NCBI GenBank assembly: GCA_000242935.3
Contig: CP007053.1
Span: forward strand, 3,209,001-3,273,000
DNA: 64,000 nt
Source: Opitutaceae bacterium TAV5
GTDB taxonomy: Bacteria > Verrucomicrobiota > Verrucomicrobiia > Opitutales > Opitutaceae
Reading direction: 5' to 3'
The translations under genes and the position numbers were made by a program. The notes beneath the pieces are model-generated. The model saw only the letters and a list, made by a program, of their open reading frames with translations, did not search any database and was not told the DNA's origin. This document shows positions 1 to 57,854 of the stretch, piece by piece; within the stretch, counting starts at the first letter, position 1, and each line of letters opens with the position of its first letter.

Positions 1-1449
1 GCCATCACGTTTCCCCTGGCATCCGGGCAAACGGACGAAATTCCCGAACCATGGCGTTCGCTGCCGGACCGGCTGCGGGCGGCGGCGGAGACGTTTCCTC
101 TGGCGCGCGTGTCGGCTGGCGAAGCATGGCCTGTTTTCGAAACCGTGATGCTGGGAAATAACGCGATTCGTTACGAGGATAGCGGGCGGTGCTTCGATGC
201 GTTTCGTTTTCGGACGCCGCCCGCGCCGGAGAGTTCCGGCGACATGGTATGGGCGTTTACCGCGCCGCGCGCATGGCTCCACTGGTATATCCTGCCGCGA
301 GAGGGAGAGATGGAAGAATTCCGCAGCTGGCACCATGCCGTTGCGCTCCATGAGGAGTTTCCCGCCGCCACACGGGAGAATCCCGTGATTCTGCAGCGGC
401 TGGAGGGCGACCGCCTGAAGCCGGATACGGAATATATCCTGTGGTTCTCCGCCCGGGACAGGGATGCGCCCGGAGGGGAATTGCGTTTTGCGATCCATTT
501 TGAGAAATCCGATGACCAGGATGATGGAAAGGTGAAGGAACCGGACGATCCCGATGCCATCATAAAAGCTCTGCGGCTGCAAAAGGCGGGCGCCAGGCGG
601 CAGGCGCAGTATCTCGGATCGCGCGGTGCGCGGTTGCTGCTCGACACGAAACTGTTCGAGGCCGGTTATGGTGAACGACGTATCGACGATTTGCTGACAT
701 CGCTGGAACGCACGCGGCGATTTCGTGGCGGGTTTTTCATGACGATGGAGTTTCATATCCCGCCATGCCGCAGCGAGCCGTTGCTGGCCGACATCGTGAA
801 GGCTTATGGTGAACCGGATCTCATGCTGCGTCCCGAGGATTTTCCCAAACGGGAGGACAGTGACGACGGTGATGAAAAGGAGCCTCCGCGTGACGTGTAT
901 TATTTCGACTACTTCGGCCTGGAGGTGAACCGGGCGGCGGGGCGCGTTGTGCGCGTGCGCTCGCAGGCGGTGGATCTTGCGCGGTGGCGGCAAAGCATCC
1001 CCGCTGCCGGGCTGGCGTGGAGCGAGTGTCCGGTGGTGCAGGCGGATTGCACGTTGTTTTATCGCGATGGCCGCGAACTCGCGCGCGTCGTCTCATGGGG
1101 GAAGCCGGACGCGCGCCGCATCGATGACGGCGGCCCATTGCCGAAGGGCGCCTATGCGAGCCCCGACGCGCCTCCGGGGTCGGGACTGGTGCATGAGGGC
1201 GAAGGCCGGTTTCGTTTCGAATACAACTATGCCGACGGCACGCCGCGCGTGCGGGCGAAGCTGGTGAAGTATCGGTGGCAGGGCGCTTACGAAGAATTTT
1301 TCCCGAACGGAAGTCCGAAGGCCCGGATGCCCTACAAGGACGGTGAGCTCGACGGCGAGGCGCGCATCTTCGACGAGTCGGGCAAGGTTGTGCGCTCTGT
1401 GATCTTCGAGGAGGGCAAGCGCGTTGATATGTCGGAAAACGCGCCATGA
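1..1449 (+). CDS. Hypothetical protein with C-terminal MORN-like repeats (5' partial)
   Basis: The reading frame is open from base 1, so the start lies outside the window; the GTG at 109 is only an internal codon. The visible 482 residues include a charged linker (EKSDDQDDGKVKEPDD), a helical segment rich in Arg and Ala, and a YYFDYFGLEVNR segment. The C-terminus has short strand-turn repeats (EEFFPNGSPKARMPYKDGEL, then GEARIFDESGKVVRS) like the MORN/YwqK-type repeats of immunity-like and surface proteins. The stop codon overlaps the ATG of the next, decayed gene (ATGA at 1446-1449), so it was probably co-transcribed with the ankyrin block downstream. No function can be assigned. The MORN-like call rests on the repeat pattern alone. 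Confidence 0.7.
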   Translation, partial: AITFPLASGQTDEIPEPWRSLPDRLRAAAETFPLARVSAGEAWPVFETVMLGNNAIRYEDSGRCFDAFRFRTPPAPESSGDMVWAFTAPRAWLHWYILPREGEMEEFRSWHHAVALHEEFPAATRENPVILQRLEGDRLKPDTEYILWFSARDRDAPGGELRFAIHFEKSDDQDDGKVKEPDDPDAIIKALRLQKAGARRQAQYLGSRGARLLLDTKLFEAGYGERRIDDLLTSLERTRRFRGGFFMTMEFHIPPCRSEPLLADIVKAYGEPDLMLRPEDFPKREDSDDGDEKEPPRDVYYFDYFGLEVNRAAGRVVRVRSQAVDLARWRQSIPAAGLAWSECPVVQADCTLFYRDGRELARVVSWGKPDARRIDDGGPLPKGAYASPDAPPGSGLVHEGEGRFRFEYNYADGTPRVRAKLVKYRWQGAYEEFFPNGSPKARMPYKDGELDGEARIFDESGKVVRSVIFEEGKRVDMSENAP

Positions 1450-1706
1450 AAATACGAATACACTCGTGCATACCATAACTCCCACGCTTTTTATCTGGTT
1501 TCTCGTCCTGTCCTCGCCGGTCTTGCTGCCGCGGTGGTTGAACCCGGTGTTTGCCAGTCTTCCCGGCGGGTGGCAGGAGGTGCCGGAAGTAAAACTCGTC
1601 GATGCCGTCCGACGCGGACGGCGAAGGAGAGGCACGCCGCCTCATCGTCGCCGGAGTCAACGTCAACTTTCTGGATGCCCCTTGCCGAAGTCGCCAAATT
1701 CCTTGA
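1446..1706 (+). pseudogene. Decayed N-terminal fragment of a secreted ankyrin-repeat paralog
   Basis: An ATG at 1446 opens a frame that stops at once (TAA at 1476). A second frame across 1480-1620 reads a hydrophobic signal-like segment (TLFIWFLVLSSPVLLP), then EVKLVDAVRRG. At 1617 the reading returns to the first frame with DGEGEARRLIVAGVNVNFLD, which is an ankyrin repeat. Joined across the shift this gives VDAVRRG+DGEGEARRLIVAGVNVN, the same first repeat found in the intact neighbours (ARTGDVAEVRRLLAAGMDVN). The fragment ends with TGA at 1704-1706, and no later part of the family follows. It is therefore a frameshifted and truncated gene copy. Confidence 0.65.
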
Positions 1707-1745
1707 GGCACCTGAACCCAAAACCTGATCCCCTCTGACCCAATC

Positions 1746-4700
1746 ATGCCAGACAGTAACATTTTCCTGTTTCACACTGTTCATCGTGCCGGCGTTGCTC
1801 ACCCGGGAAATTTCAACCAGTGGAGTTCCCGCGGCATTTTGATGGTCGCGTTTTCCCTGTGCGCGTTCACATCATCCCTGATATCGGCGTCGGAGAAACA
1901 GACGGGAAACGCTGGCGCGGCCGGACGGGTGACCGCAACATCTGCCGACGATTTTGTCCGCTTCATCGACGCCGCCCGCACGGGCGACGTGGCGGAGGTG
2001 CGGCGGTTGCTGGCGGCAGGAATGGATGTGAACCGGGGCGACGCCTATGGGCAACCGGCTCTGCTTCATGCTATCGATGCCGGGCAGTCCGAAGTGGCGG
2101 TTGCGCTTGTCGAAGCGGGGGCGGACCTGACACAAACCGTGAACAATGAACTGCCGCTTTCATGGGCAGCCATGACCGGTGATGTGGGCCTTGCCAGGGC
2201 CATGTGGAAGCGCGGAGCCGATCCGGCGGCGCAACCCCGCCGTGGACCAAGCTATTCTCCAGGGGCGACGCCGCTCATGCGTGCTGTCGAATTCGGGCAT
2301 CTGGCGATTGCCCGTGGATTCGTGAATGCGGGCACACCGTGGCGCAACGAGACCGACCGGGGGACCGGCGCACTCGAATTCGCGGCGCGGAGCGGAAGCG
2401 TGGAGTGCATCCGGTTCTTCCTCGGGAACGGAGCGGACCCCGACTTCCCCGTCCCGGCCTCAAGTGCGTGGGCGGGTAGCGAGCATGGAGGGCCGTTTCG
2501 TCGTATTGCGACCGGAAATACGCCGCTTGTCGCCGCCGTCGAGTGCGGGCACCTGGAGGCGGCGCGGGTGTTGATCGATGCCGGGGCCGACGTGAACCGG
2601 CCGGCCACGGGGATCGTCAGCACGACGCGCGGCCTTGTCGGGAAGTTGACGCGTACGCCCCTGGTCTCGGCGGTGCTGCACAATCAGGCCCACCTGATCC
2701 CGCTGTTGCTCGAACGTGGCGCCGACCCGCGGGCGCTGGATGGGCTGGCAATCCGTCTGGCTGATCTTATGGGTGACAGGGAAGCGTATGCGCTGTTGCG
2801 ACAGGCAGGGGCACCTGCGCCGGAGCCGTTCGCATTTCGGGAATGGCTGCCGAAAACGGCGCGGGCGACGGATACGGATGGCGAAAAGACCTGGTCCTTC
2901 CGGCGACTGCAATTGCCGGGACAGGTGACGGACAGCCGGTCTGCGCCTGCCTTGCCACCCGGGGGGATTACGCTGGCCATTATCGACGAGAAGGGAACGG
3001 CTCCCGATATTGAGGCGCATCTGGTTGCCCGGCTTTCAGGGTTGGAGAATGTGACGCTGGTCGAACGCGGCGAATGGAAACGCATTGCTGCCGAGCGTGG
3101 ATATCTGGCAAACGGGCGAGTGGTGGAGCCGGCGCGGCTGGGTAATGTATTGGGAGCGGATGCACTGGTCTTTGTGCAAATGGATCGTTTGTTCGGGGAA
3201 CCGGTTTGCAGTGTGCGGGTGGTCAGCGTGAAATCGGGAGTGGTGGCCGGTATGGTCCGGCTGGCGGTGGTCCCGGAGGAGAGCGAGCGTGTGACCGATG
3301 TTCTCGCGCGGTGCTGTCTGGAAGCGGCGGCTCGCGGGTTTGCCGGGACGAGCCTGGTGGCGGTGGCACCGTTCGTGGCCTCGACCAATACTCGCGAGGC
3401 ACGTGAACTGGAGCGACTGTTCGGATTCGGCATCAGCATGGGGCTTGCGGCGTTGCCGGGCGTGGTGCCGGTGGAGCGGGCGGAACTGGCGCAGCTGCGC
3501 ATGGAAACCGGAGGGAGTGATGAATTGCTGCCGAGCCACTGGTTGCTGGAAGGGCAGGTGGAGCCAGCCTTGACGGATGGAGATGCACCGTCGTTGGCAC
3601 TTGTTCTCACGCCGGCCGGTGGTCCGGGGGAAACTCCCGGACATGCGGTGCGGCGGCTGCAAATAAAGGGTACAGGGAAGACGGTTGCTCAGGTGGCGAA
3701 TGAGGCGATCGCCGGATTGACGAGCTTGCTGGACTTGATTCCGGAGTCGCCGGGTGACCGTGAGGCGGAGGCGGGGGGATTTTCGGAGATGGCGCGACGT
3801 TATCTGCAACATCGCATGTGGGGAGCCGCCCGGGCAGCGGCGGAGGCGGCATGGGCTCTCGGCGGCGGTGGCGACGTGGCGTCCGGTTTGCGAATGGATG
3901 CGATTTCCGGAAGATTGATGTATTACGAAAAATATTACAGGGAAACCGCGGAGACCGAGCAGGAATGGTCGGGATTGTCCAGTCTGGTGTCCCGGCTCGA
4001 CCCGTTGTCGGTGGCGCGGAAAGAGGATGCCGGGGGGCGGGCGTTGTCGCCGGAATATCTTCTGGAGGATGCCCGGACATTGCTGGATTTGTTCGAAATG
4101 GTGCTGGAGCGAGTCGAAAGGCAGCATGACGAGGGTGGAGGAAGTGACGCCGGATTTGCCGGACAGCCGTTCACTGCGTGGATCGCTGGCGATATCTGGA
4201 ATGCCGCCACGGTGCCGTTGCGAATGACGGCTCCATTGTCATACGAAGATAATTACGGGGCGGGTTTTAATGAATTGAGAAACAGATTGCTGGATCTGAA
4301 CAACCGTGCGTTCGCACTGGCGTTATCGCGAGGAGATACGGTAGCCGCGGCTTCGTTGAGGGTGTGGCGTTGCCGGAACATGCCTTGGTGGGAGCCGGAC
4401 GGGAGTCGCGGGCGCGCGGAGGTTGTACGATGCTTGCGGGAATCGCGCGACTGGGCCGGGCCGCTTTCGGGGCACGCCGTGTGGGGCGGAGTATGGTGGT
4501 CGGCATGGGAGCGCGCAGTCACGCCGCCTGCGGTGGAGGATGCGGCATTCCGTTTTTGGGGAAAAATGGCGAGGGAGCTGGTGATATCGTCCGATGCGGG
4601 CGAACGATTTCTGGGTCTGGCGCTTCTCAATCGCATGAGCATGAGCCAGCGTGTGGCGGAAGATGCGTGGCGAGAGGCGTCTGTGCTTTGCCGGATATTG

Positions 4701-6371
4701 TTCGAAAGCGAAAGTGCATGGCCGGGTGCGATTCGCAGGGAATGTACGGGAGAGATGCTGCGAGGGAAGAGCCCTTGGCGGATGGTGACATCATGGTATG
4801 CAGACGCCATGTCGGTCATGGTACAGCCGAGGTTGCTCCGGACGCCGGGAGGCCGGACCTGGTTGCCCGGACCACGGATAAATTCGCAACCGGAGCGCCT
4901 TCTGGAAGACTGGAAACGGTTTTGCCTCGAATGGACGCTGACGGGACTGGAGCGCATGTCTGGATCGGGAACGGTTTCCGGTTACCGGACCATGCCGATG
5001 GTGGTTGGAGACGAGACGGGTGGCTTGCCGGCGGTCGGGATGCAGAGGCTGGCCGACGCAATGCACGGAGCATCCCGCGTATTGCATGGGGAGGGAGGCA
5101 AGGGAACGCCATTGCGAGAGATGGCGGAGAGTCTGGAATGGCGGGCAAAACGCTACTCGGTGCAGGCCACCGCAATGCAGGCCGAACATCGGGATCCGCC
5201 CGGAATGGGAAAGGACGAAAAAAAACGGGATCACCAGCGGGTGTTGCCGACGGGTCCGGCGCGTGGCCTGGTCACGACAACTCCGGATATCAGGACCGCC
5301 ACGATCGATGAGCGCATTCTCGCCCGCATTGGTCCGGCCAGTGCAGGCGATTACCTCGGGGTGAGGACGACGGCCGGGGACTGGTTGATCAACGGTCAGG
5401 ATGCATCGGCCTGGCAGTTTGACGACGAGGGGCGAATTGTCGGTCGCATCTCGTTTTATGATACGAACGAATCGCGATCGAAAGACGGGGCTGATACCGG
5501 AAATGGCGGACGTCCGGTGTGGATGCCGGGCCGCCTGGAGGGGGACATGCAGGCCGCAGGGGCGGACGTGACGGATAAATGGTTTGCGTGTCCGGGGGGG
5601 CGAGCGGAAACAAATCGCCGGCGCCCGGACTGGCCCGACCGGATTTTTTTGCAGAATCGTGTTGTGGGAGGCTGGCACGAACTGAAGTCACCACAGCCGT
5701 TTCATGCGATTTATGATGTGAAGATTATCGGAGATGCTGTGTATTCAATTTTCGTATATAATCCGGACGCGGCGGCCGGACCGCGCAATCGGGGAGATTT
5801 TCTGCTGCAGGGCGACCCTTTGGTCGGGATCATGGAATACGATATCGAAAAAACAGAATGGCGGTTACTGGTGAGTAGTCGCCGGATGCCTGCGGCGTCT
5901 CCGCTGGATGGCAAAATGCAAAAGCCTCCGGAGCGGCTGCTAAAAGTGTCGGACGGGAACAAGGGAAGCATTCTGATGGTGGATGGATTTCCCGGGCATG
6001 TCTATGATGCTCGCACGCGGGCATGGCGTGCGTCGGCGTCGGAGGAAATCGGGCAGGCGAAGAAGCTGGAAGAGGACGCGCGGTTCTGGCGCCTGGCGGG
6101 GCGTCAATGGTTTGCCTGGGCAAGCGAGGGGCGGGCGGGTTTTCTCGAACGCGGGCGCGGGAAGACACCGGTGCGGCTTGCTCTGGAGTTCGACACATCG
6201 GGGGAAAACGGGTTGCTGGCGCGATTGCCCGAGGATGTGCGGCGCCAAGTGTCGCTTGCGGGGTTGGGCGGAGGTTGGGCGACCAGGATGTCGGGCGGCC
6301 TGTTGCTGTGGCGCGGGCCGGTTTATTACTGGATACCAAAGGCGCGGCTCGAAGAGGCGCTGATGCAATAA
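1746..6371 (+). CDS. Giant secreted ankyrin / CsgG-like / beta-propeller-like protein (paralog A)
   Basis: 1541 aa. The ATG at 1746 has no clear ribosome binding site. An ATG at 1842 would place the export signal (MVAFSLCAFTSSLISA) at the very N-terminus and is a good alternative start. Domains in order: ankyrin repeats at about 68-365; a CsgG-like domain at about 405-515 (VTLVERGEWKRIAAE, then LGNVLGADALVFV); a related second domain at about 535-660 (SLVAVAPFVASTN); a long helical region to about 1140; and a strand-rich, propeller-like C-terminus from about 1170 that ends in GGLLLWRGPVYYWIP. CsgG itself is the curli secretion lipoprotein, but this protein lacks a lipobox. The role is unknown; a periplasmic or surface protein-interaction function is inferred. 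It is a paralog of the genes at 6852 and 12979. Confidence 0.8.
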   Translation: MPDSNIFLFHTVHRAGVAHPGNFNQWSSRGILMVAFSLCAFTSSLISASEKQTGNAGAAGRVTATSADDFVRFIDAARTGDVAEVRRLLAAGMDVNRGDAYGQPALLHAIDAGQSEVAVALVEAGADLTQTVNNELPLSWAAMTGDVGLARAMWKRGADPAAQPRRGPSYSPGATPLMRAVEFGHLAIARGFVNAGTPWRNETDRGTGALEFAARSGSVECIRFFLGNGADPDFPVPASSAWAGSEHGGPFRRIATGNTPLVAAVECGHLEAARVLIDAGADVNRPATGIVSTTRGLVGKLTRTPLVSAVLHNQAHLIPLLLERGADPRALDGLAIRLADLMGDREAYALLRQAGAPAPEPFAFREWLPKTARATDTDGEKTWSFRRLQLPGQVTDSRSAPALPPGGITLAIIDEKGTAPDIEAHLVARLSGLENVTLVERGEWKRIAAERGYLANGRVVEPARLGNVLGADALVFVQMDRLFGEPVCSVRVVSVKSGVVAGMVRLAVVPEESERVTDVLARCCLEAAARGFAGTSLVAVAPFVASTNTREARELERLFGFGISMGLAALPGVVPVERAELAQLRMETGGSDELLPSHWLLEGQVEPALTDGDAPSLALVLTPAGGPGETPGHAVRRLQIKGTGKTVAQVANEAIAGLTSLLDLIPESPGDREAEAGGFSEMARRYLQHRMWGAARAAAEAAWALGGGGDVASGLRMDAISGRLMYYEKYYRETAETEQEWSGLSSLVSRLDPLSVARKEDAGGRALSPEYLLEDARTLLDLFEMVLERVERQHDEGGGSDAGFAGQPFTAWIAGDIWNAATVPLRMTAPLSYEDNYGAGFNELRNRLLDLNNRAFALALSRGDTVAAASLRVWRCRNMPWWEPDGSRGRAEVVRCLRESRDWAGPLSGHAVWGGVWWSAWERAVTPPAVEDAAFRFWGKMARELVISSDAGERFLGLALLNRMSMSQRVAEDAWREASVLCRILFESESAWPGAIRRECTGEMLRGKSPWRMVTSWYADAMSVMVQPRLLRTPGGRTWLPGPRINSQPERLLEDWKRFCLEWTLTGLERMSGSGTVSGYRTMPMVVGDETGGLPAVGMQRLADAMHGASRVLHGEGGKGTPLREMAESLEWRAKRYSVQATAMQAEHRDPPGMGKDEKKRDHQRVLPTGPARGLVTTTPDIRTATIDERILARIGPASAGDYLGVRTTAGDWLINGQDASAWQFDDEGRIVGRISFYDTNESRSKDGADTGNGGRPVWMPGRLEGDMQAAGADVTDKWFACPGGRAETNRRRPDWPDRIFLQNRVVGGWHELKSPQPFHAIYDVKIIGDAVYSIFVYNPDAAAGPRNRGDFLLQGDPLVGIMEYDIEKTEWRLLVSSRRMPAASPLDGKMQKPPERLLKVSDGNKGSILMVDGFPGHVYDARTRAWRASASEEIGQAKKLEEDARFWRLAGRQWFAWASEGRAGFLERGRGKTPVRLALEFDTSGENGLLARLPEDVRRQVSLAGLGGGWATRMSGGLLLWRGPVYYWIPKARLEEALMQ

Positions 6372-6393
6372 AACATTATCCGTTTTTCAGATC

Positions 6394-6780
6394 ATGATAA
6401 CCGCACGCTTCCCTTTTTTTCCGGCTGGTTGTCTGGCGTTCGCCGCAATATTGCTCACGGGTGATGCAATCGCGCCGGATGGATCGGATGTGGTTCCGCA
6501 AAAAAGCGGTGAATCGTTCACCGGCTTCATCCGCTTCATCAATGCCGCCCGCACGGGCGACGTGGCGGAGGTGCGGCGGTTGCTGGCGGCAGCCATCGCA
6601 TTCGGAAAAACCTCGGGAGCGGACGCGAAAACATGCTCGAACGGAATATCGTCGAGGCCGTGCCTGCGGAGGGAGGCGTGCTGTTGTGGCAGAGTCCAGT
6701 ATATTACCGGATCCCCGACGCCCGTTTCCGCGAACTCCGCGATGCCATCCTTTTCCGTGGAGAGAAACGTGAACAAATCC
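6394..6780 (+). pseudogene. Internally deleted ankyrin/CsgG paralog: N- and C-termini joined
   Basis: The first part reads a signal peptide (MITARFPFFPAGCLAFAAIL) and one ankyrin start (FINAARTGDVAEVRRLLAA). Bases 6544-6592 are identical over 49 bp to 1971-2019 in the upstream paralog. Immediately after, in another frame, the sequence reads EGGVLLWQSPVYYRIPDARF. This matches the extreme C-terminus of paralog A (GGLLLWRGPVYYWIPKARL). About 1400 codons of ankyrin, CsgG-like, helical and propeller sequence are therefore missing. The C-terminal remnant has no stop and runs in frame into the next gene, so automated callers may start that gene wrongly at 6633. Confidence 0.75.
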
Positions 6781-6851
6781 TTTCGCCTCAAAATCTGCCG
6801 ATCCTGAAACGATTCCATTTTCCAGCTTCTTTTCATCCACCCTTGTTCACT

Positions 6852-9800
6852 ATGAAACCGGCATCCATTCCCGCTCTCGTCATTTGCGCCATCATTGCCT
6901 TGTCCCTTGCGCCTGCGCTCGCATTTTCCGGCAGCGAATCGCAGCCGAAACCGCCGCTGGTGGCGGTGATGCCGGAGGTGCTGGTGCAGAAATTGCCGGG
7001 AAAGGAACAGCAGTTCAAACGCGGCGGCACACTGGCCGTGCTGGTGCAGGCGTCGCTCGGGGCCGATCCGCGCTGGGCGTTTGTCGAACGCGAACAGATT
7101 CAGGTGATCGAATCCGAACAGGAACTGGCCGCGGCAGGCGCGTCGCGCGAAGCGGCTGCGCTTGGAACCGTGTCGGCATTGCGCCGCGCCCGGCTGGCCG
7201 GAGCAAGCCGGGTGCTCTCCATCCGGTTGTTCGGAGACCGGGAAAATCCCCGCGTGCTGGTCGAGGTTGCCGATGCGTTGAGGGCGGAGCGGCTGGCACG
7301 GGTCGAGGAAACGCTGTCACCCGATTTGTTACCCAACGAAAGCTGGCTTTCCATGCCGCCCGATGCCGCTGTCGCCAGTGTCGCCGGATGCGTGACGCGC
7401 GCGCTCGAAACCGCTGATGCCGGCGCGGCCCGGCTGGAAGACATGACCGTTGTCGCCCCGCTTGCCTTCGTGAACCGGAGCGCTACCGATCGGCTCGAAC
7501 CGTTGGGACGCGCGCTCGACGAGGCGCTGCGCCACCGGTGGTCGCGAGAGGATAGCCGCATCCACGTCCTCTCCATCGGCAGGGAAATGGCGGATGGCGC
7601 AACAGGTCATTCCATCGGGGCCGAAGGCACGTTCGATGAATCGCTGCTGGTGCTCGCCGGCATGAGCGCGGAGAGCCAGGAGGCGTGGGCGCGGGTCGCC
7701 GACGTACTCGTATGGGGCGAGTTTTCCGAGGCCGGGGACGACGGCCCGCATGGATGGCGTCCTCTGGAAACGCCGGTAACGCTGACCGTCAGGTGGTCCG
7801 CGGGCGGTGACAAAACCGGCTCACTCCGCATGGACGGGACGTTGGGAAACCTCCCGCAACTGGCGGAAAAGATGGCGGCGCAGGTGACGGACAAGGTTCG
7901 CGGACTGAAGGGCCGGCTTTCGGCGGAAGATCGCCTGAAGGCGGCGGCTTTCATGTCCGAGGCAGCCAGCGCCCAGGGAAGTGAAAGCCGTGCCCGTGCC
8001 ACGGAGCGCAGCCGGGAACGGTTTGCGGAGGCGGCGCACCGGATGAGTGTGGCCGCGTTTCTCGCTCCGGAAAACCGCGAGTGGCGCGAACTGCGCGTGC
8101 AGATGGGCATGTCGGTTTGCGAAGACCGCAGGGAACGTCCCGGTTACGATCTGGCATCGTGGCGGAATTACTGGGCGACGGAGTTCTGGCGGGTGTACGA
8201 CCAGTTTGGCGTGGATGCGCAGGGGCGTGTGGACCTCGGGCTGATGGCGCGGGGCGCCCGGTATCCGATTTTTACGACAGGAGCGTCGGAACGGTTCATG
8301 AAGGCCGGCCGTCTGCTGGCCGGTGCCAGGATAAAGAGATCGACATGGCCTTTTGGCGATTTCTGCGAAAAATTTCTCTCCCAGTTGCAGTCATATGACG
8401 TGGAGCTGGCGAGGCGGCGCGAGATTTTCGAGGCGATGTGGCCTGTCGTGAGGCAGGGGATACAGAATGAAAAGGAGAAGGCGTTTTCGGTGGTTCACTT
8501 CATCTATGAAGGAGATTCCGTCCGGGCGACGAAAGCGCTGGACGGCGATTCCGGTTCGAAACCGGCGGCCGGGATGGCGGAGGCGACGCAGTCGCGCGAG
8601 GGGGCGCCGGTGTGGTTTGTCTCCGATGATCCGATGCGCATCTTCCGGGCTTCTCCCGGAGGCCGGGGCGCGGGAGTGGCGGGGCGCGGAGCCGCCCGTC
8701 CGGAGGAGTTTTTCATTCGTGTGCGTCCGTCGCTGAAGGACCGGATGGCGGCGCAACCACTGAAGCCCAGGAGCGCATGGGAACGGGTGCGCTCGCTGTT
8801 CTCTTCGGACGAGCCGGAGACGATAGCCGCGGCTGTGGCGATTCCCCCTCCATTGCCCGTTCTCGATCCGGAGGAGTTGCCTGCCGCGCGGTGGATGTCG
8901 CTGGGATGGGCTTGGGCCAAGGGCGCCCGCCGGGGAGACAACCTGGCGGACTGGATGGATGACGTTTCGGCGGTGTGCGCGGAGCCGCGCGGCGTGTGGG
9001 GCGTGATCCCGGAAAAATGGGGTCGCAAGCGATACGGAGCGGCGGACCAGAACGGGTTGTTTCTGGACTTCGCCGGGTTTGGCCTCGGATCCGCCGGAAG
9101 TGTGGCAGGGGTGAGCCCGGCCGAACGTATCACGGATGTGGCTCTGGTCGGTGGCGAAGTCTGGCTGGCTGCTTATGGCGGAGGTATCCGGATCGTGGAG
9201 CCGGGCCTGCTGACCGACGCGCCCGGCGCCGGAAAGACCCGGCGACTGACGGGGGCGGAAGGTTTGCTGCGCGACGATGTGGCGGAGCTGGCCGCGGGCA
9301 AGGGCTTCGTTCTTGCCGGAGACAAGGTCGCCCGCCGCCAGTGGGACGCTGACGGGAACACGGAAATGATCAGCAGCGTGGCGACCGATTTGTCGCGTAT
9401 CACGAAGGCTGCGTTACCGGATTCGGCCGCGCTTCGGGGAATCCCGCCGGTGGAGCGTGCCGCGATCCAGTCATTCGGAAATGATGCCGCGCGTCTGGTG
9501 AAGTTGCCCGAACAGGTCGGTCGTATTTTGTGGAAACCCCTGCCTGATCGCGAACGGGAGATCCGGCAAAACCGCAGGGAAGGAGAGATGTCGGGGCCGT
9601 CGTTTTGTCCGACCGGCGCGGGCGATGGTTACTGGGTGAGCGACGGTCGCTCGGTCGCCTGGGCGGCGGGCGAGCGGATGCAGCCGCTCGCGACCTGGGA
9701 GAGCGCCGAAGTGGGCGCGCTGGCGGATGATGGCCGGCATCTGTTTGTCGCTGCGAGCATCGACGGCTTTCCCGTTCTGCACTACTTTACACCCCGTCCG

Positions 9801-12800
9801 ACCTGGGACGGGCTCCGGGTTTACGTTTACGACTACAGGGAGGGAGCGTGGCGGGGGTGGTTCCGCGTGCCCGGTCCGGTGACGGCGATGGCGGCCACTC
9901 CGGGCGTACTGGTGTTCGCCACCATGGGCACGGGTGTTTACGACCACGGAGTGATGTTTGTCAGCACCGGAATGATCGCACCGCCCTCGGGCGGAGCCGG
10001 CGGCGGCGTGCTGTCGGCGGTTGTTGGCGGGGACCTGCTGGCCTTGCGGGCCGCGATCGCGGCCGGAGCTGATGTCAACGAAGCCTCGCCGTGGGGCTGG
10101 ACGCCATTGATGGCGGCCTTGTGGAGAGCGCCGGATGCATTTCCGGATAATGAAAAAGTAACTACGAGTGGAGCGGCCGCCGGCCCGGAGGGGCCGGGAA
10201 ATGCGGATGATCTCGCAATGGTCAGGATGCTGCTGGATGCCGGAGCGCGGTGTGATGTGAGCAACGCGTGGGGCTGGCATCCGCTCTTTGTCGCCGCCGC
10301 GTGGTCGCGTCCCGGAGCGGTGCGCCTGTTGCTCGACGCCGGAGCGAAGGCGGACTACCGCATGGAGCCGGTGCTGGTGAACGGGCGTCCTGTCGCGGCG
10401 GCGCGTGTGCGCCCGACAGCCTTGCATGGCGCAATATGCTCCGACCGGGCGGACGTGCTGGCGATGTTGCTGGAAGCGGGCGCCGATCCTGTGCTGGCCG
10501 ACGGACTGGGCCGGTCGCCGTTTGCGCTGGCCGCAACTCATGCGGGGGAAACGGTGGCGGGCAAGCTGCTGGCCACTGGAGCCGTCAGACGGGCGGAGGC
10601 GCTGCGGCTGGCCACGGCGGCGGGTCGCGCAGGGTTGGAGTCGGCGGCGGATCCCTCGGCCGCTGGCGTCGCGTCTTCGGGCGGAGAAAAACAAAGTAAC
10701 GGGGATTCAACTACGAAAGAGGGCGTCGGGAAGCGGGATCAGGAGATGCTGGATATGGAACTGCGCGCGGTGGTGGCGCGGGAGCGCGGGGAGCGTTTGC
10801 TGTCTGCGATCAAGCCTTTGTTGGAGGCCGGAGCCAATCCTGTGCGTGAGATCCGGGAGGAGGAGCAGGGCGGGGTCCGCACGGGAGCGACCGCGATCGA
10901 AATGGCGATGAGGCAGCGTCAAACGGAAGCGATTGAGATGATGATCCGCCATATGGCAATCGATTCTCTCAACACCGCCCGCAAGACGGACTGGCAGCGC
11001 CCGGGGACGTCGGTTGGCGCGATGTTGCTGCGGTTGCTGCTGGATCGCGGATACCCGGAGCAGGCCGCGTTGCTGCTGGAGCGCGGGTTTGCGCCGGATG
11101 TGAAGGCGGACGAAGAACTGGGAAAAATGGATGACAGTGTGTATCCATTGTTGCGAGTGGCCGTATTGCATGGGAATTCACGCGGCGACGCTGCGGAGGT
11201 GGTGCGGGCGTTGCGGCGTTCGGGTTTCCGGAGACTTGCGCGGCGCGTGGCCCGCATGGGAGACGAGAGCGTCATGGCGGGGATCGTCCGGATGCGTGAT
11301 GCGGTTTCGCTGGAGGCATTGTTCGAGCCGATTCCGGATTCACTGGTGGAGCTGCGAGCGTGGGATGAGGTGGAAGATCTGAGAAAAGCCACCGGGAGCA
11401 CCAATCCGTTTTTTCCCGTTGTCGAGGCTGGCTGGCGCGAGGGCATCGAGGCGCTGGTGCGCGCAGGTGTGGAGCGCAATGCGATGAGCAACAGCACGGA
11501 GAAAACGCTGGCGGACATCATACGCGACCGGCCGGAACTGGCCGTGATTTTCAACGGGCGTCCCGGTTCGCCGGACAACACGCTCGAAGGCGCGCGTGCC
11601 CTCCTCGCCGTGGCGAACAAGGAAAGTGCTCCGCCGGATTCCCTGTTCACCCCGGCCGTGTTGCGATATCGTGACCAGGACGGCGCAGGTGTATTGTTGA
11701 TATCGGTACGAAATGGCGGTGGGAAAACCGTCCGGCGGATTCTGGACGCGGCGAGAGGGCTGGGTATCGATCCGGGGTTGTCCGGCCAGACCTGGCGAGG
11801 CGAGACGGTCGTGAATGCCGCGGCGACGGCCTGCGACGCTTCGACGGTCAAGGCGCTCCTCGATGCAGGCGCCGATCCGGATGGCCCCCGTGACGCCTGG
11901 ACGCCGCTCGTCGCAGCGGCAAGGGAAGGTTGCAGCGACGTCGTCAAGGTGCTGGTCGAAGCCGGCGCAGATGTCCGCCGCATGGATCGTCTCGGTTTCC
12001 AGCCCGTAATCGCAGCCTGCATGGCGACTGGCGAGATGGAGTCGCTGAAAATCCTGCTGGGGACAGGCAAGGCGGGGCTCGACGCGCTGACCGACGAGGG
12101 GCACGGCGTGCTGGAGGCGGCCGTCATTTCCAATTCGCCCGAAAAAATCCAGTGGCTTCTCGATCAGGGGGCAAAGTGGGCGCTGCCCTGGAAGGAGGAT
12201 TATCATCCTCTCAATACGGCAGCGCGGCGCGGGCTTGCCGGCAGTGTGCGCAAACTCCTCGAACTCGGACTCTACAGCCCGAAGGCGCTTTCCCTTGCCA
12301 GGGACGACGCCACGCGGGCCGTCCTCCAGGCCTACGGGGGCGAAGTCATGCATCAGTCGGGGGAGGACGAGGCGTTGTGGCCGGAAATTCTGGCCGACGC
12401 CAGGAACTGGCGAAAACGCGCCGAGGAACGGTTGGCGGCGGGCGGCAATGTCAATCACCAGTCGATGTACTGGACGCCGTTGTCGCTGGCCCTGAAAACG
12501 GACGATCCGGCCCGTGTGCGTTTTCTGGTGGAGCGCGGAGCGAAACCGGATGCCGGTCGTATCAATTATCAAATGACAGGCCCGGTGACCGTCTATTACG
12601 CATGGCTCAACAGTCGCGCCGCCGGGCATCATGACGAACCGAAAACGGATGCGATGGCGCTGGCCTGCCTGGATATTTTCTGGCCTTACGATCGCGATTC
12701 TTACGTGCGGAGTAGCCTGCTGGCGGCAGCAGTTCGCGGCAATATGCCGAAGACGGCGATCCGGATGATCGAACTGGGTGTGCCAAGGGAGGAAGCCGTC

Positions 12801-12911
12801 CGGGAATTTCGCAAAAATACACTCCTCACTGCCGAACAGCGCGCTCAATGGTCCAGAATCCTCGGTGTGACGGAACCGGTGCCGGATAACGCTCCGGGAG
12901 CAAAACCGTGA
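6852..12911 (+). CDS. Giant secreted CsgG-like / propeller-like / ankyrin protein (paralog B, rotated domain order)
   Basis: 2019 aa from the ATG at 6852, chosen because it begins a clean signal peptide (ALVICAIIALSLAPALAFS); the open frame upstream belongs to the deleted paralog. Domains: CsgG-like at about 33-180 (WAFVEREQIQVIESEQEL) and a second related domain at about 195-350 (MTVVAPLAFVNRS); a helical region to about 700; a propeller-like region at about 700-1045 (WLAAYGGGIRIVEPG, VRVPGP-type strands); then a long ankyrin block at about 1045-2000 (GADVNEASPWGWTPLMAAL, LLDAGAKADYRM, LLDAGADPDGPRDAWTPLV). Neighbours A and C have the ankyrin block first, so the order here is rotated. No enzyme motif is seen; the function is unknown. 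A 67-bp gap to the next gene suggests one operon. Confidence 0.82.
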   Translation: MKPASIPALVICAIIALSLAPALAFSGSESQPKPPLVAVMPEVLVQKLPGKEQQFKRGGTLAVLVQASLGADPRWAFVEREQIQVIESEQELAAAGASREAAALGTVSALRRARLAGASRVLSIRLFGDRENPRVLVEVADALRAERLARVEETLSPDLLPNESWLSMPPDAAVASVAGCVTRALETADAGAARLEDMTVVAPLAFVNRSATDRLEPLGRALDEALRHRWSREDSRIHVLSIGREMADGATGHSIGAEGTFDESLLVLAGMSAESQEAWARVADVLVWGEFSEAGDDGPHGWRPLETPVTLTVRWSAGGDKTGSLRMDGTLGNLPQLAEKMAAQVTDKVRGLKGRLSAEDRLKAAAFMSEAASAQGSESRARATERSRERFAEAAHRMSVAAFLAPENREWRELRVQMGMSVCEDRRERPGYDLASWRNYWATEFWRVYDQFGVDAQGRVDLGLMARGARYPIFTTGASERFMKAGRLLAGARIKRSTWPFGDFCEKFLSQLQSYDVELARRREIFEAMWPVVRQGIQNEKEKAFSVVHFIYEGDSVRATKALDGDSGSKPAAGMAEATQSREGAPVWFVSDDPMRIFRASPGGRGAGVAGRGAARPEEFFIRVRPSLKDRMAAQPLKPRSAWERVRSLFSSDEPETIAAAVAIPPPLPVLDPEELPAARWMSLGWAWAKGARRGDNLADWMDDVSAVCAEPRGVWGVIPEKWGRKRYGAADQNGLFLDFAGFGLGSAGSVAGVSPAERITDVALVGGEVWLAAYGGGIRIVEPGLLTDAPGAGKTRRLTGAEGLLRDDVAELAAGKGFVLAGDKVARRQWDADGNTEMISSVATDLSRITKAALPDSAALRGIPPVERAAIQSFGNDAARLVKLPEQVGRILWKPLPDREREIRQNRREGEMSGPSFCPTGAGDGYWVSDGRSVAWAAGERMQPLATWESAEVGALADDGRHLFVAASIDGFPVLHYFTPRPTWDGLRVYVYDYREGAWRGWFRVPGPVTAMAATPGVLVFATMGTGVYDHGVMFVSTGMIAPPSGGAGGGVLSAVVGGDLLALRAAIAAGADVNEASPWGWTPLMAALWRAPDAFPDNEKVTTSGAAAGPEGPGNADDLAMVRMLLDAGARCDVSNAWGWHPLFVAAAWSRPGAVRLLLDAGAKADYRMEPVLVNGRPVAAARVRPTALHGAICSDRADVLAMLLEAGADPVLADGLGRSPFALAATHAGETVAGKLLATGAVRRAEALRLATAAGRAGLESAADPSAAGVASSGGEKQSNGDSTTKEGVGKRDQEMLDMELRAVVARERGERLLSAIKPLLEAGANPVREIREEEQGGVRTGATAIEMAMRQRQTEAIEMMIRHMAIDSLNTARKTDWQRPGTSVGAMLLRLLLDRGYPEQAALLLERGFAPDVKADEELGKMDDSVYPLLRVAVLHGNSRGDAAEVVRALRRSGFRRLARRVARMGDESVMAGIVRMRDAVSLEALFEPIPDSLVELRAWDEVEDLRKATGSTNPFFPVVEAGWREGIEALVRAGVERNAMSNSTEKTLADIIRDRPELAVIFNGRPGSPDNTLEGARALLAVANKESAPPDSLFTPAVLRYRDQDGAGVLLISVRNGGGKTVRRILDAARGLGIDPGLSGQTWRGETVVNAAATACDASTVKALLDAGADPDGPRDAWTPLVAAAREGCSDVVKVLVEAGADVRRMDRLGFQPVIAACMATGEMESLKILLGTGKAGLDALTDEGHGVLEAAVISNSPEKIQWLLDQGAKWALPWKEDYHPLNTAARRGLAGSVRKLLELGLYSPKALSLARDDATRAVLQAYGGEVMHQSGEDEALWPEILADARNWRKRAEERLAAGGNVNHQSMYWTPLSLALKTDDPARVRFLVERGAKPDAGRINYQMTGPVTVYYAWLNSRAAGHHDEPKTDAMALACLDIFWPYDRDSYVRSSLLAAAVRGNMPKTAIRMIELGVPREEAVREFRKNTLLTAEQRAQWSRILGVTEPVPDNAPGAKP

Positions 12912-12978
12912 AAACCTGAAACACCTGTTTCATTCGCCTGCCATTCTTGTCTCTCTCCGACCTGAAAAACTGCCACTC

Positions 12979-15900
12979 ATGATCCGTCCCTCCAGCCTCC
13001 CGCGCAAGGGGAGCCCGCTTCTGTCGCGGGCCGCCCTGTCCCGTTTGTTCATCGTTTCGATCCTGTTGCTGCCCTTGTCGCATCCTCTTTCGGGCGCGCA
13101 GGTCGATGCCCATACCGGTCTCGTTCGTGCGATCCGCATGGGCGACGAGGCGGAAGTGCGGCGGCTCGTCGAGGCGGGCACACCGCTCGATTTCCCGAAG
13201 GAAACAGGGGAGTATCCTCCGCTCTATCACGCGCTCGATGCGCGGCAGTTCGGCGTGGCCCGGTTCCTCGTGGAAGCCGGTGCGGAAATCACGGCGCGCA
13301 ATGCCACCGGGCAACTCCCGATCCGTTGGGCGGCGCGGGCCGGGGACGTCGGCTTCGTCCGTTTTTTGATGAGCCGCGGCGCAAATCCCGGCGAGCGCAT
13401 CCGCCGGCAGGACGGCGTGGAGTATTCGGCGGTCATGGACGCGATCGTCTGGGACCGGCTCGAGGTGCTTCAGGCTTTTGTCGAGGCAGGCGCGAGCCTG
13501 GACAACTTTGACCCCGGGCGCACCGCGTTGGGTCTGGCGGTGGAGTGGGAAAGCCTGCGTTGCGCGCGTTATTTCCTCGAGCGCGGAGCCAACCCCAACC
13601 GGCCGGAGAACGGCAACACGCTGCTTTCGCGGGCCGTTTTCATGCGGAGTTTCGACATGACGCGCCTGCTGCTCGAATTCGGGGCGGACGCCAACCGCGT
13701 GAGCCGCGGCGAGTTTCCCGTGACGGGATACGGAGTGGTCAGGCATACGCCGCTGTATCTGGCGGTGCTTCGCAGCGAACCGGAACTGGTGAAAATCCTC
13801 TTGCAAGCGGGGGCCGATCCGCAGGCGCTCGACAACGCGGCGATCCGCCTGGCCGACATGCTGGGCGATGCCGCTTCCCACCGGTTGCTGCGCGACGCGG
13901 GCGCTCCCGATCCGGGACCGCATCCCTGGACTGCGTGGGCGCGCGATGCCGGTTTCGGCGAAGAAGAAAAGGGAAGCCGAGCGACGGCGGAGCCCGGAGG
14001 AGCGGTGGACACCCTTCGCTCCCTTTTGCGGTTGCATCCGGGAGGAGCAGCGGTCGCCGAAAACCACGCCGGAAACCGCTCCGAACGCGATGCCGACCGC
14101 GCCGAGGCGCTGAGATTTGCCGCGCTCGCGCCGCCGCGCGCCGGTGCGGACGACGGTCCCGGCCGGCTGCCACGTGAGGTGAAATTTGCCATCGTCAACA
14201 CTTCCTCCGCTGCCGCTTCCGGACAGGCGGCCAACGCGGAAAGCCTGCTGGCGGCCATGCTCTCGCAGACGGAGAACGCCGTCGTCCTCGACCGCCCGGA
14301 ACTGCGGCGAGTGCTGCGCGAACGCGCGGTGCAGGCGGATCTGGCACGTTCGCCGGGGGACGTCGTGCGCGCGGGCAGGCTCCTGGGCGCCGATGTGCTG
14401 ATCCTGCTGGCCACGCACCGGATCGGCGAAAAGAACGAGGTGATCGAGGCGCGAATCGCGGGGACCGGCACCGGACTCGTGCTCGGCAATTCACTGGCGG
14501 CGCTGGAGCCGGCCGCGCTCGAGGCGTGGGCGCGCGATGTGCGGGCCATGTGCATCGGCAGCGCGGACAAGCTGCTCGCGGCGCCGGAGGCGGTGCGCGT
14601 CGTCTCGGTGGCCCCTGTCGTCGCTTCGGTCAACACGCCGGATGCACGCGAACTGGAGCGGCAGACATCGCTGCTGCTGGCCCATCTGCTCGGACGTTCG
14701 CCGGGCGTGATTCTGGCGGAACGCGCGGCGCTGGAGAGACTTGCGATCGAAGGCGAGGCCGCCGGCCAGGACGGTTCGCAGACTTTCCGGGCGGGCGGTC
14801 GGGTGCTGGAAAGCGGACTGGAGGTCGCCCTCGATCCGGCGGAAAAACGGCTGTCGCTCGAACTGGTGCTGCGCTCCGTGACGACCGCGGGACAAGGCGC
14901 GGAACCGGTCCGCATCGTGGTGGAGGGCACGCGCGACGATCTTCGCGGGCTTGCGGAGGAGGCCGTCGCGCGGGTGGTGGCGGTGCTCGCTCCCGTATCC
15001 GGAGGGGAAGGACGCGAAGACCGGACCGACCGGCGGGCGGAAGCCGCGCAACTGGCGCGTCAGGCGGAAGACTATGGCAAGCGGGGGATGTGGACGCAGG
15101 CATCGGCCGCCGCAGAGGCGGCCTGGGCGCTGGGCGCGCGCGACGACGCCCTGCTGCGGCTCCGGCTGGAGGCTTCAACGGGGCGCGTGCTTTTTTCCTC
15201 GCGGCTGCTGCTGGCGGACAAACGGGCGCGCACACAGATGGCGGGCATCGTCAACCTGATGTCGTTCCGCGTGCCGCTGGCTTTCCCCGCCGAGGACGAC
15301 CGCGAGCTTTCGATGGAGGGCTACCTCGACGAGGCGCAGCGCATCCTGGATTTTTATGAGGCCGGACTGGCGATTCTGGAGCCGGGGAGGGGAGGGAAGC
15401 AACTGGCCGGGAAGGACCTCCGGCGATGGATGATCGATGCGCACTGGGAGGCGGCCGCGGCGCCTCTCCGGTTCGGGGAACCGTTGTCATGGAGAAATGA
15501 CTACGCAGGGGAGCTGGATGCCCTGCGCTCGCGGCTGTCGGCCGTGCATGCGCGTTCGCTGGCGCTGGCTGAGGCGGCCGGCGACGCGGGGCTCGTGCAA
15601 TCGCTGGTGGTCCTGCGTTGCAAGAATCTCCCCTGGTGGCTGCCCGACGTGGCGGACTTCGAGGACGAGGTGATGCGCGTGCTGGCAGAGTGGCGCGATG
15701 CGGAGCCCCCGCGCTCGACCCATGCCGTGTGGGGAGGCATCCACGAGATCGCCCGCCAGCACACAAACTCCGTCAGCGGCCGCGCCCGGCAGTCCTGGGT
15801 GAAACTGGGACGCCGGCTGGCCGCGTCGGACGACATGAGGGAGCGGTTTCTGGGCATGGCGATCATCGCGGGCGATTCACTTTCGTATGCGAAAAAGGAG

Positions 15901-17463
15901 ACCGCGCTGGCCTATATGCGGGAGGTGTTTCCGCAACTGGTGGAGGAGGACGCCGCCGTGCCGGGTGAAATCGCCCGGCCCTCCTTTGCCGACGGGCCGG
16001 TCAGTCCTTTCGACTGGCCGCGGTTTGCCGCATGGTATGCCGAAGTGCTGGAGCGCGGGGTCTTCGACGGCCGCTGGAGCGGGGAAGGGCAGGAACGCAG
16101 GTTTTTGGAAAACCGGTTTTCCACGAATCTGCTGTTTTCCGACGGACGGGCTTTCTGGCTGGCCGGCCTCAGCCGGCGGTTCGAATTGCTTGGCGACACC
16201 GGACGCGGCGGGTTTTTCGGGCTGCGCGGATTGCGGGAACGGGTTCCGCTCGGGGAGGCTCCGGGGGAGGGCGGGGCGGAGAAAATGCGCCGGCTGGTGT
16301 TGCAGGCAGCGGAGCGTTGCCAGGCGTTGATCGGGGCCGGGACGATGGAGTCGGGTCCCTGCACCGCCCTGCTCCACCTGGCGAGGGAACTTCGGGAGGC
16401 GGGCGGCAGGGAGGCGGAGAGCGGGCGGGATGGCGCGCTCGTCCTGCGCCATCCGCGCATGTATTTCGGGGAAGACTATCTGGCGTCGTCCACGCCGGTC
16501 CGCTGGCTGCACAAGGTGACTGCCGGGGGGCTTCGCGTGAGCGGGGAAACGGAACCGTGGATCGTCGCCTACAACGGTCTTACCGGCCGCCAGACTCTGT
16601 TGCGCCTGGACCGCGAAGGAAACGTGGCCGGAACGATCCGCCTGCCGGAGGAAAAATATGAAATGGTCCCCCACCTGATCGACGTCAGCGACCGATGGGT
16701 GGCCGGCGCCACGGGCAACAACGCCCTGGCGGTGCTGGACCGGAGAACGGGCGGGTGGCGTTTGCTGGAGGAAATCGAACCGCAGGCGTCCGTGCGCGGG
16801 CTGATCCTGCGGGGCGACAAGGTGTGCGTATCGTTTGAATACAGCCCGCAGGTGGCCGGGGACGCGTGGCAGCACCGCAACACGGTCGAGGAGGCGCTGC
16901 GCGGCGTGGTGGCGATCGATCTGGCGACCGGCGGCAAGGATTTGCTGGTAAGCAGCCGGCGCCGCCCGGCGCGCTCCCCGCTCGATGAATTCATCCGGCC
17001 CTACGAGGGGTTTTTCAAGACGGGGACGGACGAGTTTTTTATGAGCGCGGGGCCGCCGGTGGTGTGGAACTGTGCGACGGGCGCCTGGCGCGAGGGAACG
17101 GCGGACGAGCGTCGCGAGGCGGCGCGCGCGGCGGAAAGGTCCCGCCTGGTTCGCGCTGGCGGGGCGCTGTGGAGCGTGCAGGGGTGGGGCGCGAAAAACA
17201 CCCTGCGCGTCACGAATGCCGCCAATTCCCGGCAGGTCCTGGAAATCGCCTATGATCTGGATTACGGGGATCTGGAAGGGCTCCGCCGCCGACGCCCGGA
17301 ACTGGTGGCGGCGCATGAACGGACGTTGCGAGGCGGCAACCCGGGACGAGCCACGGTCCTGGACGGCGGCGTCCTGATCGAGAACGGGATTTTCTATTTC
17401 TGGCTGTCTGAGCAGGAACTCGGCGAGATCATCGTCCGTCACGAAAAGGCTGGCGATTCATGA
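12979..17463 (+). CDS. Giant secreted ankyrin / CsgG-like / beta-propeller-like protein (paralog C)
   Basis: 1494 aa. The ATG at 12979 gives a basic n-region and a hydrophobic core (LFIVSILLLPLSHPLSGAQ), a typical export signal. Ankyrin repeats fill about 42-312 (RAIRMGDEAEVRRLVEAG, FLVEAGAEITARNATGQLP, LLQAGADPQALDNAAIRLAD). Two CsgG-like domains follow at about 398-520 (NAVVLDRPELRRVLRERAV, RLLGADVLILLATH) and 539-680 (VRVVSVAPVVASVNT). A helical region reaches about 1160 and a strand-rich propeller-like part ends the protein. Layout and many motifs match paralog A, including the pair SWRNDYAGELDALR here and SYEDNYGAGFNELR in A. Function unknown; periplasmic or outer-surface location inferred from the signal peptide. 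Confidence 0.82.
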   Translation: MIRPSSLPRKGSPLLSRAALSRLFIVSILLLPLSHPLSGAQVDAHTGLVRAIRMGDEAEVRRLVEAGTPLDFPKETGEYPPLYHALDARQFGVARFLVEAGAEITARNATGQLPIRWAARAGDVGFVRFLMSRGANPGERIRRQDGVEYSAVMDAIVWDRLEVLQAFVEAGASLDNFDPGRTALGLAVEWESLRCARYFLERGANPNRPENGNTLLSRAVFMRSFDMTRLLLEFGADANRVSRGEFPVTGYGVVRHTPLYLAVLRSEPELVKILLQAGADPQALDNAAIRLADMLGDAASHRLLRDAGAPDPGPHPWTAWARDAGFGEEEKGSRATAEPGGAVDTLRSLLRLHPGGAAVAENHAGNRSERDADRAEALRFAALAPPRAGADDGPGRLPREVKFAIVNTSSAAASGQAANAESLLAAMLSQTENAVVLDRPELRRVLRERAVQADLARSPGDVVRAGRLLGADVLILLATHRIGEKNEVIEARIAGTGTGLVLGNSLAALEPAALEAWARDVRAMCIGSADKLLAAPEAVRVVSVAPVVASVNTPDARELERQTSLLLAHLLGRSPGVILAERAALERLAIEGEAAGQDGSQTFRAGGRVLESGLEVALDPAEKRLSLELVLRSVTTAGQGAEPVRIVVEGTRDDLRGLAEEAVARVVAVLAPVSGGEGREDRTDRRAEAAQLARQAEDYGKRGMWTQASAAAEAAWALGARDDALLRLRLEASTGRVLFSSRLLLADKRARTQMAGIVNLMSFRVPLAFPAEDDRELSMEGYLDEAQRILDFYEAGLAILEPGRGGKQLAGKDLRRWMIDAHWEAAAAPLRFGEPLSWRNDYAGELDALRSRLSAVHARSLALAEAAGDAGLVQSLVVLRCKNLPWWLPDVADFEDEVMRVLAEWRDAEPPRSTHAVWGGIHEIARQHTNSVSGRARQSWVKLGRRLAASDDMRERFLGMAIIAGDSLSYAKKETALAYMREVFPQLVEEDAAVPGEIARPSFADGPVSPFDWPRFAAWYAEVLERGVFDGRWSGEGQERRFLENRFSTNLLFSDGRAFWLAGLSRRFELLGDTGRGGFFGLRGLRERVPLGEAPGEGGAEKMRRLVLQAAERCQALIGAGTMESGPCTALLHLARELREAGGREAESGRDGALVLRHPRMYFGEDYLASSTPVRWLHKVTAGGLRVSGETEPWIVAYNGLTGRQTLLRLDREGNVAGTIRLPEEKYEMVPHLIDVSDRWVAGATGNNALAVLDRRTGGWRLLEEIEPQASVRGLILRGDKVCVSFEYSPQVAGDAWQHRNTVEEALRGVVAIDLATGGKDLLVSSRRRPARSPLDEFIRPYEGFFKTGTDEFFMSAGPPVVWNCATGAWREGTADERREAARAAERSRLVRAGGALWSVQGWGAKNTLRVTNAANSRQVLEIAYDLDYGDLEGLRRRRPELVAAHERTLRGGNPGRATVLDGGVLIENGIFYFWLSEQELGEIIVRHEKAGDS

Positions 17464-57798: not shown

Positions 57799-57825
57799 CT
57801 CTTCGCGTTCTTCGCGATCTTCGTG
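57799..57825. repeat. Nonamer-phrase array
   Basis: Three 9-nt phrases in a row: CTCTTCGCG, TTCTTCGCG, ATCTTCGTG. It belongs to the same style of iterated intergenic phrase as the arrays at 34315, 46812, 54807 and 57379. It lies about 30 bp after the acyltransferase stop, reading on the minus strand. Confidence 0.7.
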
Positions 57826-57854
57826 TGAAAATCCGAAGGGTCCGGGGCAGGGAG

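Follow-up and report, generated by a model that had tools for sequence, protein, structure and literature searches.

A predicted ECF-sigma cassette with giant CsgG-like proteins in Opitutaceae bacterium TAV5

Three giant proteins, P0001, P0002 and P0003, are encoded in tandem near the start of a 64-kb stretch of the genome of Opitutaceae bacterium TAV5 (positions 3209001-3273000 of contig 1, 7.4-Mb genome; "the window" means this whole stretch). Inspection of 20 kb of upstream DNA showed that they belong to an array that continues about 18 kb 5' of the window start and is headed by an extracytoplasmic function (ECF) sigma factor. We lean towards the view that the trio is the distal-half part of an autoregulated ECF-sigma cassette with exported, scaffold-forming giants. 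The regulation is well supported; the function of the giants we infer. The sigma/anti-sigma head and its promoter lie outside the window, and hence were absent from a preliminary description made from its sequence.

In the proposed system, the outer domain of the anti-sigma factor would sense a change in the envelope, and the released sigma factor would transcribe its own array. The exported giants, joined by a short CsgG-like protein, would assemble through their LpoB/TolB-N/CsgG-like domain pairs into a periplasmic or outer-membrane scaffold, whose exchangeable modules (propeller, ankyrins, EF-hands, hydrolase-like domains) would bind partners. Genes for unannotated giants can thereby be treated as one defined and testable system: they have a regulator, a predicted promoter and a set of conserved partners, and they occur in phyla about whose envelopes, to our knowledge, little is known.

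The paired LpoB/TolB-N/CsgG-like domains

The giants almost certainly carry a tandem pair of LpoB/TolB-N/CsgG-like domains. A hidden Markov model (HMM) of the pair, trained on giants of other genomes only, with own-genome sequences left out, scored P0011 at 184, P0003 at 165, P0001 at 138, P0009 at 112, P0012 at 47 and P0002 at 31 bits, against a best score of 5.9 among 1200 shuffled proteins. The Pfam CsgG model reached 20.3 bits on P0003 (cut-off 20.8; 23 bits, above the cut-off, in the genome scan), matched P0002 weakly (E 0.13) and did not match P0001; at E 0.1 it was found in 18 of 29 giants and all 15 short CsgG-like proteins, and at E 0.01 in 29 of 39 giants. By hhalign, both domains of the pair align with the short CsgG family (98.4%, E 8e-15; 95.3%, E 2e-8), and the two align with each other by profile-profile comparison (95.4%, E 1.8e-8). 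Searches of PDB sequences gave sub-significant matches throughout: for domain 1, LpoB at the top (E 0.05-0.14, spanning most of the domain), then a pyridoxamine-oxidase-like protein (0.62) and CsgG (0.79); for domain 2, an augmin subunit (0.11) and CsgG (0.92).

The LpoB, TolB-N and CsgG families are mutually related, and sequence-profile similarity places the pair in their superfamily. The preliminary description had asked whether the middle domains might fall in an unrelated family, and whether the neighbouring genes co-occur elsewhere; the domains stay in the CsgG superfamily, and the core neighbours do co-occur in other genomes. A separate CsgG-family gene lies at G000:C1:1478228-1478644, in an open frame of 328 amino acids that matches profile positions 10-160.

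The sigma factor and its predicted promoter

The ECF sigma cassette is very probably autoregulated from a predicted promoter. P0006 carries sigma regions 2 and 4. All 10 members examined of the predicted anti-sigma family contain a single hydrophobic segment (two overlapping windows in one of them), and the outer domain of the family is conserved. The 56 regions upstream of sigma genes share the motif CCAAGGATT-N13-CGTCT, an ECF-type -35/-10 pair. The dyad AGGA..GTCT occurs in 26 of them, versus 0.6 expected, and no dyad rose above 10 in 15 shuffle rounds; at least 11 of the 14 motif bases are present in 42 regions (mean 1.6, maximum 5 in 100 shuffle rounds), and the spacing of 13 in 29 (shuffle maximum 3).

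Within the TAV5 genome, the sole perfect match lies before the sigma gene (genome 3190854-3190880), which predicts a one-operon regulon. Three one-mismatch sites elsewhere in the genome sit within open reading frames, as judged by eye. Motif sites in the 64-kb window are not above chance (2 with at most 3 mismatches, 1.29 expected), and locus L023 has no site except that of its own sigma gene. Transcription of all the distal giants from the sigma promoter is probable, at a lower level of confidence than the autoregulation itself.

Organization of the array

From the sigma start to the end of P0004 the array covers 38.4 kb on a single strand, with P0001, P0002 and P0003 in its distal half. The upstream order is P0006, P0007, P0014, P0008, P0009, P0010, P0011, P0012, P0013; the six array features of the window (P0005, P0001, a relic, P0002, P0003, P0004) are all on the + strand. 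Six giants are included: P0009, P0011, P0012, P0001, P0002 and P0003.

Upstream of the window:
Genome 3190897-3191478, array strand: P0006, ECF sigma factor (Pfam region 2, 2.2e-16; region 4, 1.5e-13)
Between P0006 and P0014: P0007, anti-sigma-like, one hydrophobic segment
Between P0007 and P0008: P0014, secreted immunoglobulin (Ig)-like protein
P0008: short CsgG-like protein (Pfam CsgG 33.4 bits, cut-off 20.8)
P0009, P0011, P0012: upstream giants, P0011 without an ankyrin match
P0010, P0013: separate hydrolases, so labelled from weak Pfam matches and motifs

In the window:
1-1449, +: P0005, MORN-like, hydrophobic N-terminus, ATG about 70 bp 5' of the window (MORN_2 2.1e-06, 27.8 bits, cut-off 29.6)
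1746-6371, +: P0001, 1541 amino acids; ankyrins, CsgG-like pair, helical part, C-terminal part homologous to the P0003 propeller
1962-2750, +: P0001 ankyrin repeats, limits approximate
2970-3911, +: P0001 LpoB/TolB-N/CsgG-like pair, residues 377-690 (138 bits)
5565-6368, +: P0001 C-terminal part, 27% identity to the P0003 propeller part
6394-6840, +: single P0001-like relic, N- and C-terminal ends in different frames, middle gone
6852-12911, +: P0002, 2019 amino acids counted from the ATG at 6852 (the mechanical open reading frame begins at 6633); CsgG-like pair, propeller-like part (homology and eye), C-terminal ankyrins
7032-8009, +: P0002 CsgG-like pair (31 bits)
10008-12548, +: P0002 ankyrin repeats, limits approximate
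12979-17463, +: P0003, 1494 amino acids; ankyrins, CsgG-like pair, helical part, propeller
13114-13848, +: P0003 ankyrin repeats, limits approximate
14179-15177, +: P0003 CsgG-like pair (165 bits)
16507-17439, +: P0003 beta-propeller, with the motif SSRR.P...PLD that recurs in many giants
17622-20294, +: P0004, TPR/PDZ-like (TPR weak, PDZ by eye)

The gene 5' of the sigma gene, on the opposite strand, resembles aminopeptidase P by eye. A further long + strand open reading frame of the window (57825-62240) encodes 1471 amino acids.

Modules of the giants

The three intact open reading frames of the preliminary description were recovered, each with ankyrins and the CsgG-like pair. Pfam Ank_2 matches P0001, P0002 and P0003 strongly (E 1.7e-26, 5e-34 and 4.5e-24). 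The preliminary description also treated the three as a single family with a propeller-like end, and here only part of the claim holds. P0001 and P0003 are homologous (33% identity over 1025 amino acids, 27% across the C-termini), but P0002 matches them in pairwise BLAST only by its ankyrins, and its order differs, with the CsgG-like pair first, the ankyrins last and the propeller-like part not terminal.

A C-terminal propeller in P0003 is supported by modelling. The AlphaFold2 model of residues 391-1494 (mean pLDDT, the predicted local distance difference test, 62.8; part of the helical stretch poor) has a C-terminal part that resembles the propellers of Tako8, BamB and kelch proteins (best E 5.9e-6, template-modelling score by target about 0.3). 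Model residues 148-283, the second domain of the pair, match Chlamydia CT253 (6uxc; Z 11.2, 3.5 A, 120 residues), at rank 47 in a list filled by propellers and on a model of that same mean pLDDT; the fold lists hold no row for the first CsgG-like domain. P0001 would carry a C-terminal propeller by its homology to P0003. The propeller-like part of P0002 is suggested by homology to a similarly unmodelled part of L095 and by reading by eye. When 29 giants are aligned, the alignment hits designed kelch propellers (E 3e-7) and also TPR proteins.

The giants, of about 840-2020 amino acids, vary in their other modules. Pfam detects ankyrins in 5 of 29 giants at E 0.1 and 3 of 39 at E 0.01; among the 39, EF-hands and Reg_prop occur in 5 each and FG-GAP in 2, with single cases, among the matches listed, of Sel1, PA14, Fn3_assoc, a sulfatase-modifying domain and others. 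When the P0003 ankyrins were the query, ankyrin-bearing long open reading frames appeared in L072, L095 (two), L150 and L129, where pair and ankyrins lie in overlapping frames, and weakly in L132 and L082. Among the matches seen, Pfam, NCBIfam and PADLOC recognized the scanned giants only by repeats, common modules and partial CsgG.

Opposite the nucleophile Ser of P0010, 7 of 8 fused hydrolase domains align a Gly or Thr, and conventional activity is unlikely for most of these domains. In L023, separate hydrolase-like genes (9652-10569 and 19097-19873) that retain the nucleophile-motif serine stand 3' of giants whose fused domain lacks it. In the Geminisphaera locus L092, a P0013-like part is fused into the giant.

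The giants are probably exported, as the preliminary description proposed: P0001, P0002 and P0003 all have a hydrophobic N-terminal stretch (best 12-residue Kyte-Doolittle mean 2.4-3.0; hydrophobicity only). Among the partners, the Ig-like family has an Ig-like N-domain, in a model made from the Geminisphaera homolog and not from P0014; its second half has no convincing PDB relative. Beyond repeats and partial CsgG, Pfam models matched among the array partners include none for the Ig-like protein, and P0007 matched no Pfam family.

History of the giants

A tree of 80 pair domains groups P0001 with P0003 (100/98), P0002 with L129 (100/96), P0012 with Geminisphaera L092 (99/95), P0011 with L094 (100/100), and P0009 with a Spartobacteria row and G169 (98/94). 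The array therefore combines about five lineages of giants. P0002 is nearest to L129 in this tree and to L095 in its propeller part and ankyrins. The origin of the family by plain local duplication, repeated as the preliminary description had it, is not supported, since the six giants fall in those lineages and have nearer relatives in the loci of other species; local copying seems to explain only P0001, P0003 and the relic. The two relics described earlier reduce to one: 6526-6597 (83% identity over 24 amino acids to P0001 38-61) and 6672-6734 (67% over 21 amino acids to P0001 1485-1505) read as the two ends of an internally deleted copy. Decay is seen elsewhere too, in two tandem hydrolase-type giants at L073 5801-14118 (G256), each split by a stop.

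Occurrence of the locus

By sequence similarity, related forms of the array occur in many Verrucomicrobiota and in some other bacteria, and a conserved sigma-headed core is accepted here with high confidence. Eighty loci from named records were found via the short CsgG family. Where there was room, they had a same-strand upstream sigma gene in 42 of 65, an anti-sigma gene in 37 of 68, an Ig-like gene in 39 of 72 and a giant in 53 of 72 cases. Sigma matches lie on the same strand in 46 of 47 cases, 44 upstream and 0 downstream of the short CsgG gene; five HMMs gave 0 matches on 158 kb of control DNA. The core is found in Verrucomicrobiota, with parts in Planctomycetota, Lentisphaerota, Kiritimatiellota and a few Pseudomonadota. 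The loci, often incomplete at their ends, hold 0-4 giants, and the TAV5 array six.

Full-length P0003 and P0002 gave, in 57 relatives and outside the own genome, matches by the ankyrin part only, and an ankyrin-free alignment was therefore needed. Such an alignment of P0001 and P0003 found matches in 20 of 335 class genomes, own included; P0009/P0012 found matches in 34 of the 335, mostly by the hydrolase part only. In 13 of 20 stretches fetched from 18 genomes, picked for ankyrin-free or P0009/P0012 matches, sigma, anti-sigma, Ig-like gene, short CsgG and giant stand all together.

The MORN-like and PDZ neighbours, suspected earlier of belonging to the array, do have links to CsgG-type loci elsewhere. 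Relatives of P0005 stand beside CsgG-type genes in L119, L088 and L106 (54, 36 and 28 bits). A homolog of P0004 was found in one of 56 other relatives, the same-genus genome G001 (68% identical, sharing a contig with the short CsgG gene), and one lies directly upstream of the sigma gene in Geminisphaera L092, probably the same organism as G001. In G001 itself, neither P0003 nor P0002 found a match at E 1e-10.

In L102 (4985-10843) and L106 (2365-10873), sigma, anti-sigma and Ig-like genes are followed by 4-6 tandem short CsgG-like genes, and no giant was detected in these stretches. A short CsgG gene and a giant occur together in Gilvimarinus (L160), Colwellia (L162) and a Woeseiaceae metagenome-assembled genome (L153), the last also with sigma and anti-sigma; transfer to Pseudomonadota is possible.

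Weighing the proposal

LpoB, TolB, CsgG and the BamB-like propeller are envelope proteins, and because of this superfamily membership and the exchangeable modules the giants may be a scaffold or a receptor, a role we put forward tentatively. More cautiously still, the array could represent a new class of ECF-sigma system, centred on Verrucomicrobiota and acting as a modular envelope sensor-scaffold, as judged from the present loci. In that class, the sigma factor, which may have a single strong promoter genome-wide, would drive a private set of giant exported proteins that join a constant LpoB/CsgG-like pair to exchangeable recognition modules. In the literature covered (titles and starts of abstracts, most subscription papers falling outside this scope), nothing pointed to this operon.

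Several observations weigh against the cassette as proposed. The genome holds 40 sites with at most 2 mismatches to the motif, versus 16 for a reversed control pattern, so weaker secondary targets are possible. Other promoters could lie in the gaps that precede P0012 (about 800 bp, no clear relic seen), P0001 (about 300 bp) and P0009 (about 170 bp). Only 16 of the 48 loci that have 4 kb of flanking DNA on each side hold all four partners, and outside Verrucomicrobiota the Ig-like gene and anti-sigma often went undetected by HMMs trained on Verrucomicrobiota. The short CsgG gene is unevenly distributed, being present in 61 of 387 genomes of the phylum and in 3 of 57 close relatives (own counted), and thus not universal envelope machinery. 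As for the fused hydrolase domains, another serine or serine-like stretch lies beside or at the site in L077, L092 and L094, with Ser one place after the aligned site in L092 and L094.

The giants might instead be receptors that bind an external ligand and signal to the anti-sigma factor; the Ig-like protein and the short CsgG-like protein would then relay the signal. This is less likely, though sequence alone fits both versions and several points are in its favour: Reg_prop, the two-component-regulator propeller, in 5 of 39 giants (best E 0.0009), varied modules on a constant base, hydrolase-like domains mostly without the aligned serine, and the conserved outer domain of the anti-sigma factor. 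The usual place of the giants, however, is downstream in the operon, and their number differs between loci (0-4 found per locus, six here), as would that of an output. Somewhat less probable again is that the distal genes are chance neighbours behind a smaller operon, running from sigma to one giant. Geminisphaera L092 has just this form (sigma, anti-sigma, Ig-like, CsgG and one giant, then an opposite-strand gene), and the TAV5 array has its internal gaps; but relatives of P0009, P0011, P0012 and P0002 reside in the CsgG loci L141, L094, L092, L129 and L095 of other species, and the P0004 homolog flanks sigma in Geminisphaera itself.

That the giants, in the manner of LpoB, activate peptidoglycan synthases or other enzymes of the wall is improbable. 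Among PDB sequences LpoB does match domain 1 best (E 0.05), and weak LpoB matches occur in 7 of 15 short proteins in Pfam (best 0.0015) and 3 of 15 in NCBIfam (best 0.0004), but those of the giants are sub-significant, and LpoB is unlike them in size, helical part and propeller. The preliminary description had also thought of immunity proteins. That the giants are conflict or immunity proteins with swapped effector domains is very improbable: the modules do vary, a decayed copy lies here and split giants in L073, and PADLOC PDC-M72A matches P0001 and P0003 over their ankyrins, yet that match is confined to repeats, and the families shown by the two Pfam scans of giants (25 of 29 in one, 25 of 37 in the other) include no toxin family. 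P0004, P0005, P0009 and P0012 had no PADLOC match, among proteins scanned without P0002 and P0011.

Of the CsgG roles raised earlier, a periplasmic or surface role is plausible; curli-like export, with the CsgG-like proteins as an outer-membrane channel, was set aside and has barely any probability left. Pfam CsgG does match, but over profile positions 26-98 (P0008) and 38-94 (P0003) of 210 only, although a match that stops early does not prove the rest of the domain absent. Of 15 short proteins, one has a simple lipobox pattern within its first 60 residues; the other 14, P0008 included, lack the pattern, as do P0001-P0003. CsgF had 0 matches in the genome, with a positive E. coli control.

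Comparison with known systems

The sigma-headed cassette favoured here shares with ECF sigma/anti-sigma operons the sigma regions 2 and 4, a neighbouring protein that has a single hydrophobic segment, and a predicted promoter that is conserved; it differs in partners (Ig-like protein, giants) that lack a Pfam model beyond partial CsgG and repeats, and in a P0007 that matches no Pfam family. With curli export (CsgG/CsgE/CsgF) it shares the Pfam CsgG match. Curli CsgG, however, is a full domain with transmembrane hairpins and a lipidated cysteine after its signal peptide, whereas here the profile match is partial, the lipobox pattern rare and CsgF missing from the genome; CsgE was not searched for.

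The likeness to the LpoB/TolB-N/CsgG superfamily extends to both giant domains by profile and profile-profile comparison, and the second-domain model matches CT253. LpoB, TolB and CsgG are much smaller proteins, whereas the giants join a tandem pair to helical parts and modules. TolB of the Tol-Pal system has an LpoB/CsgG-like N-domain followed by a propeller, and the giants recall this order; TolB models were not among the matches of P0001-P0003. The giants differ from TolB in having two such domains, a long helical part between these and the propeller, and a locus headed by a sigma factor.

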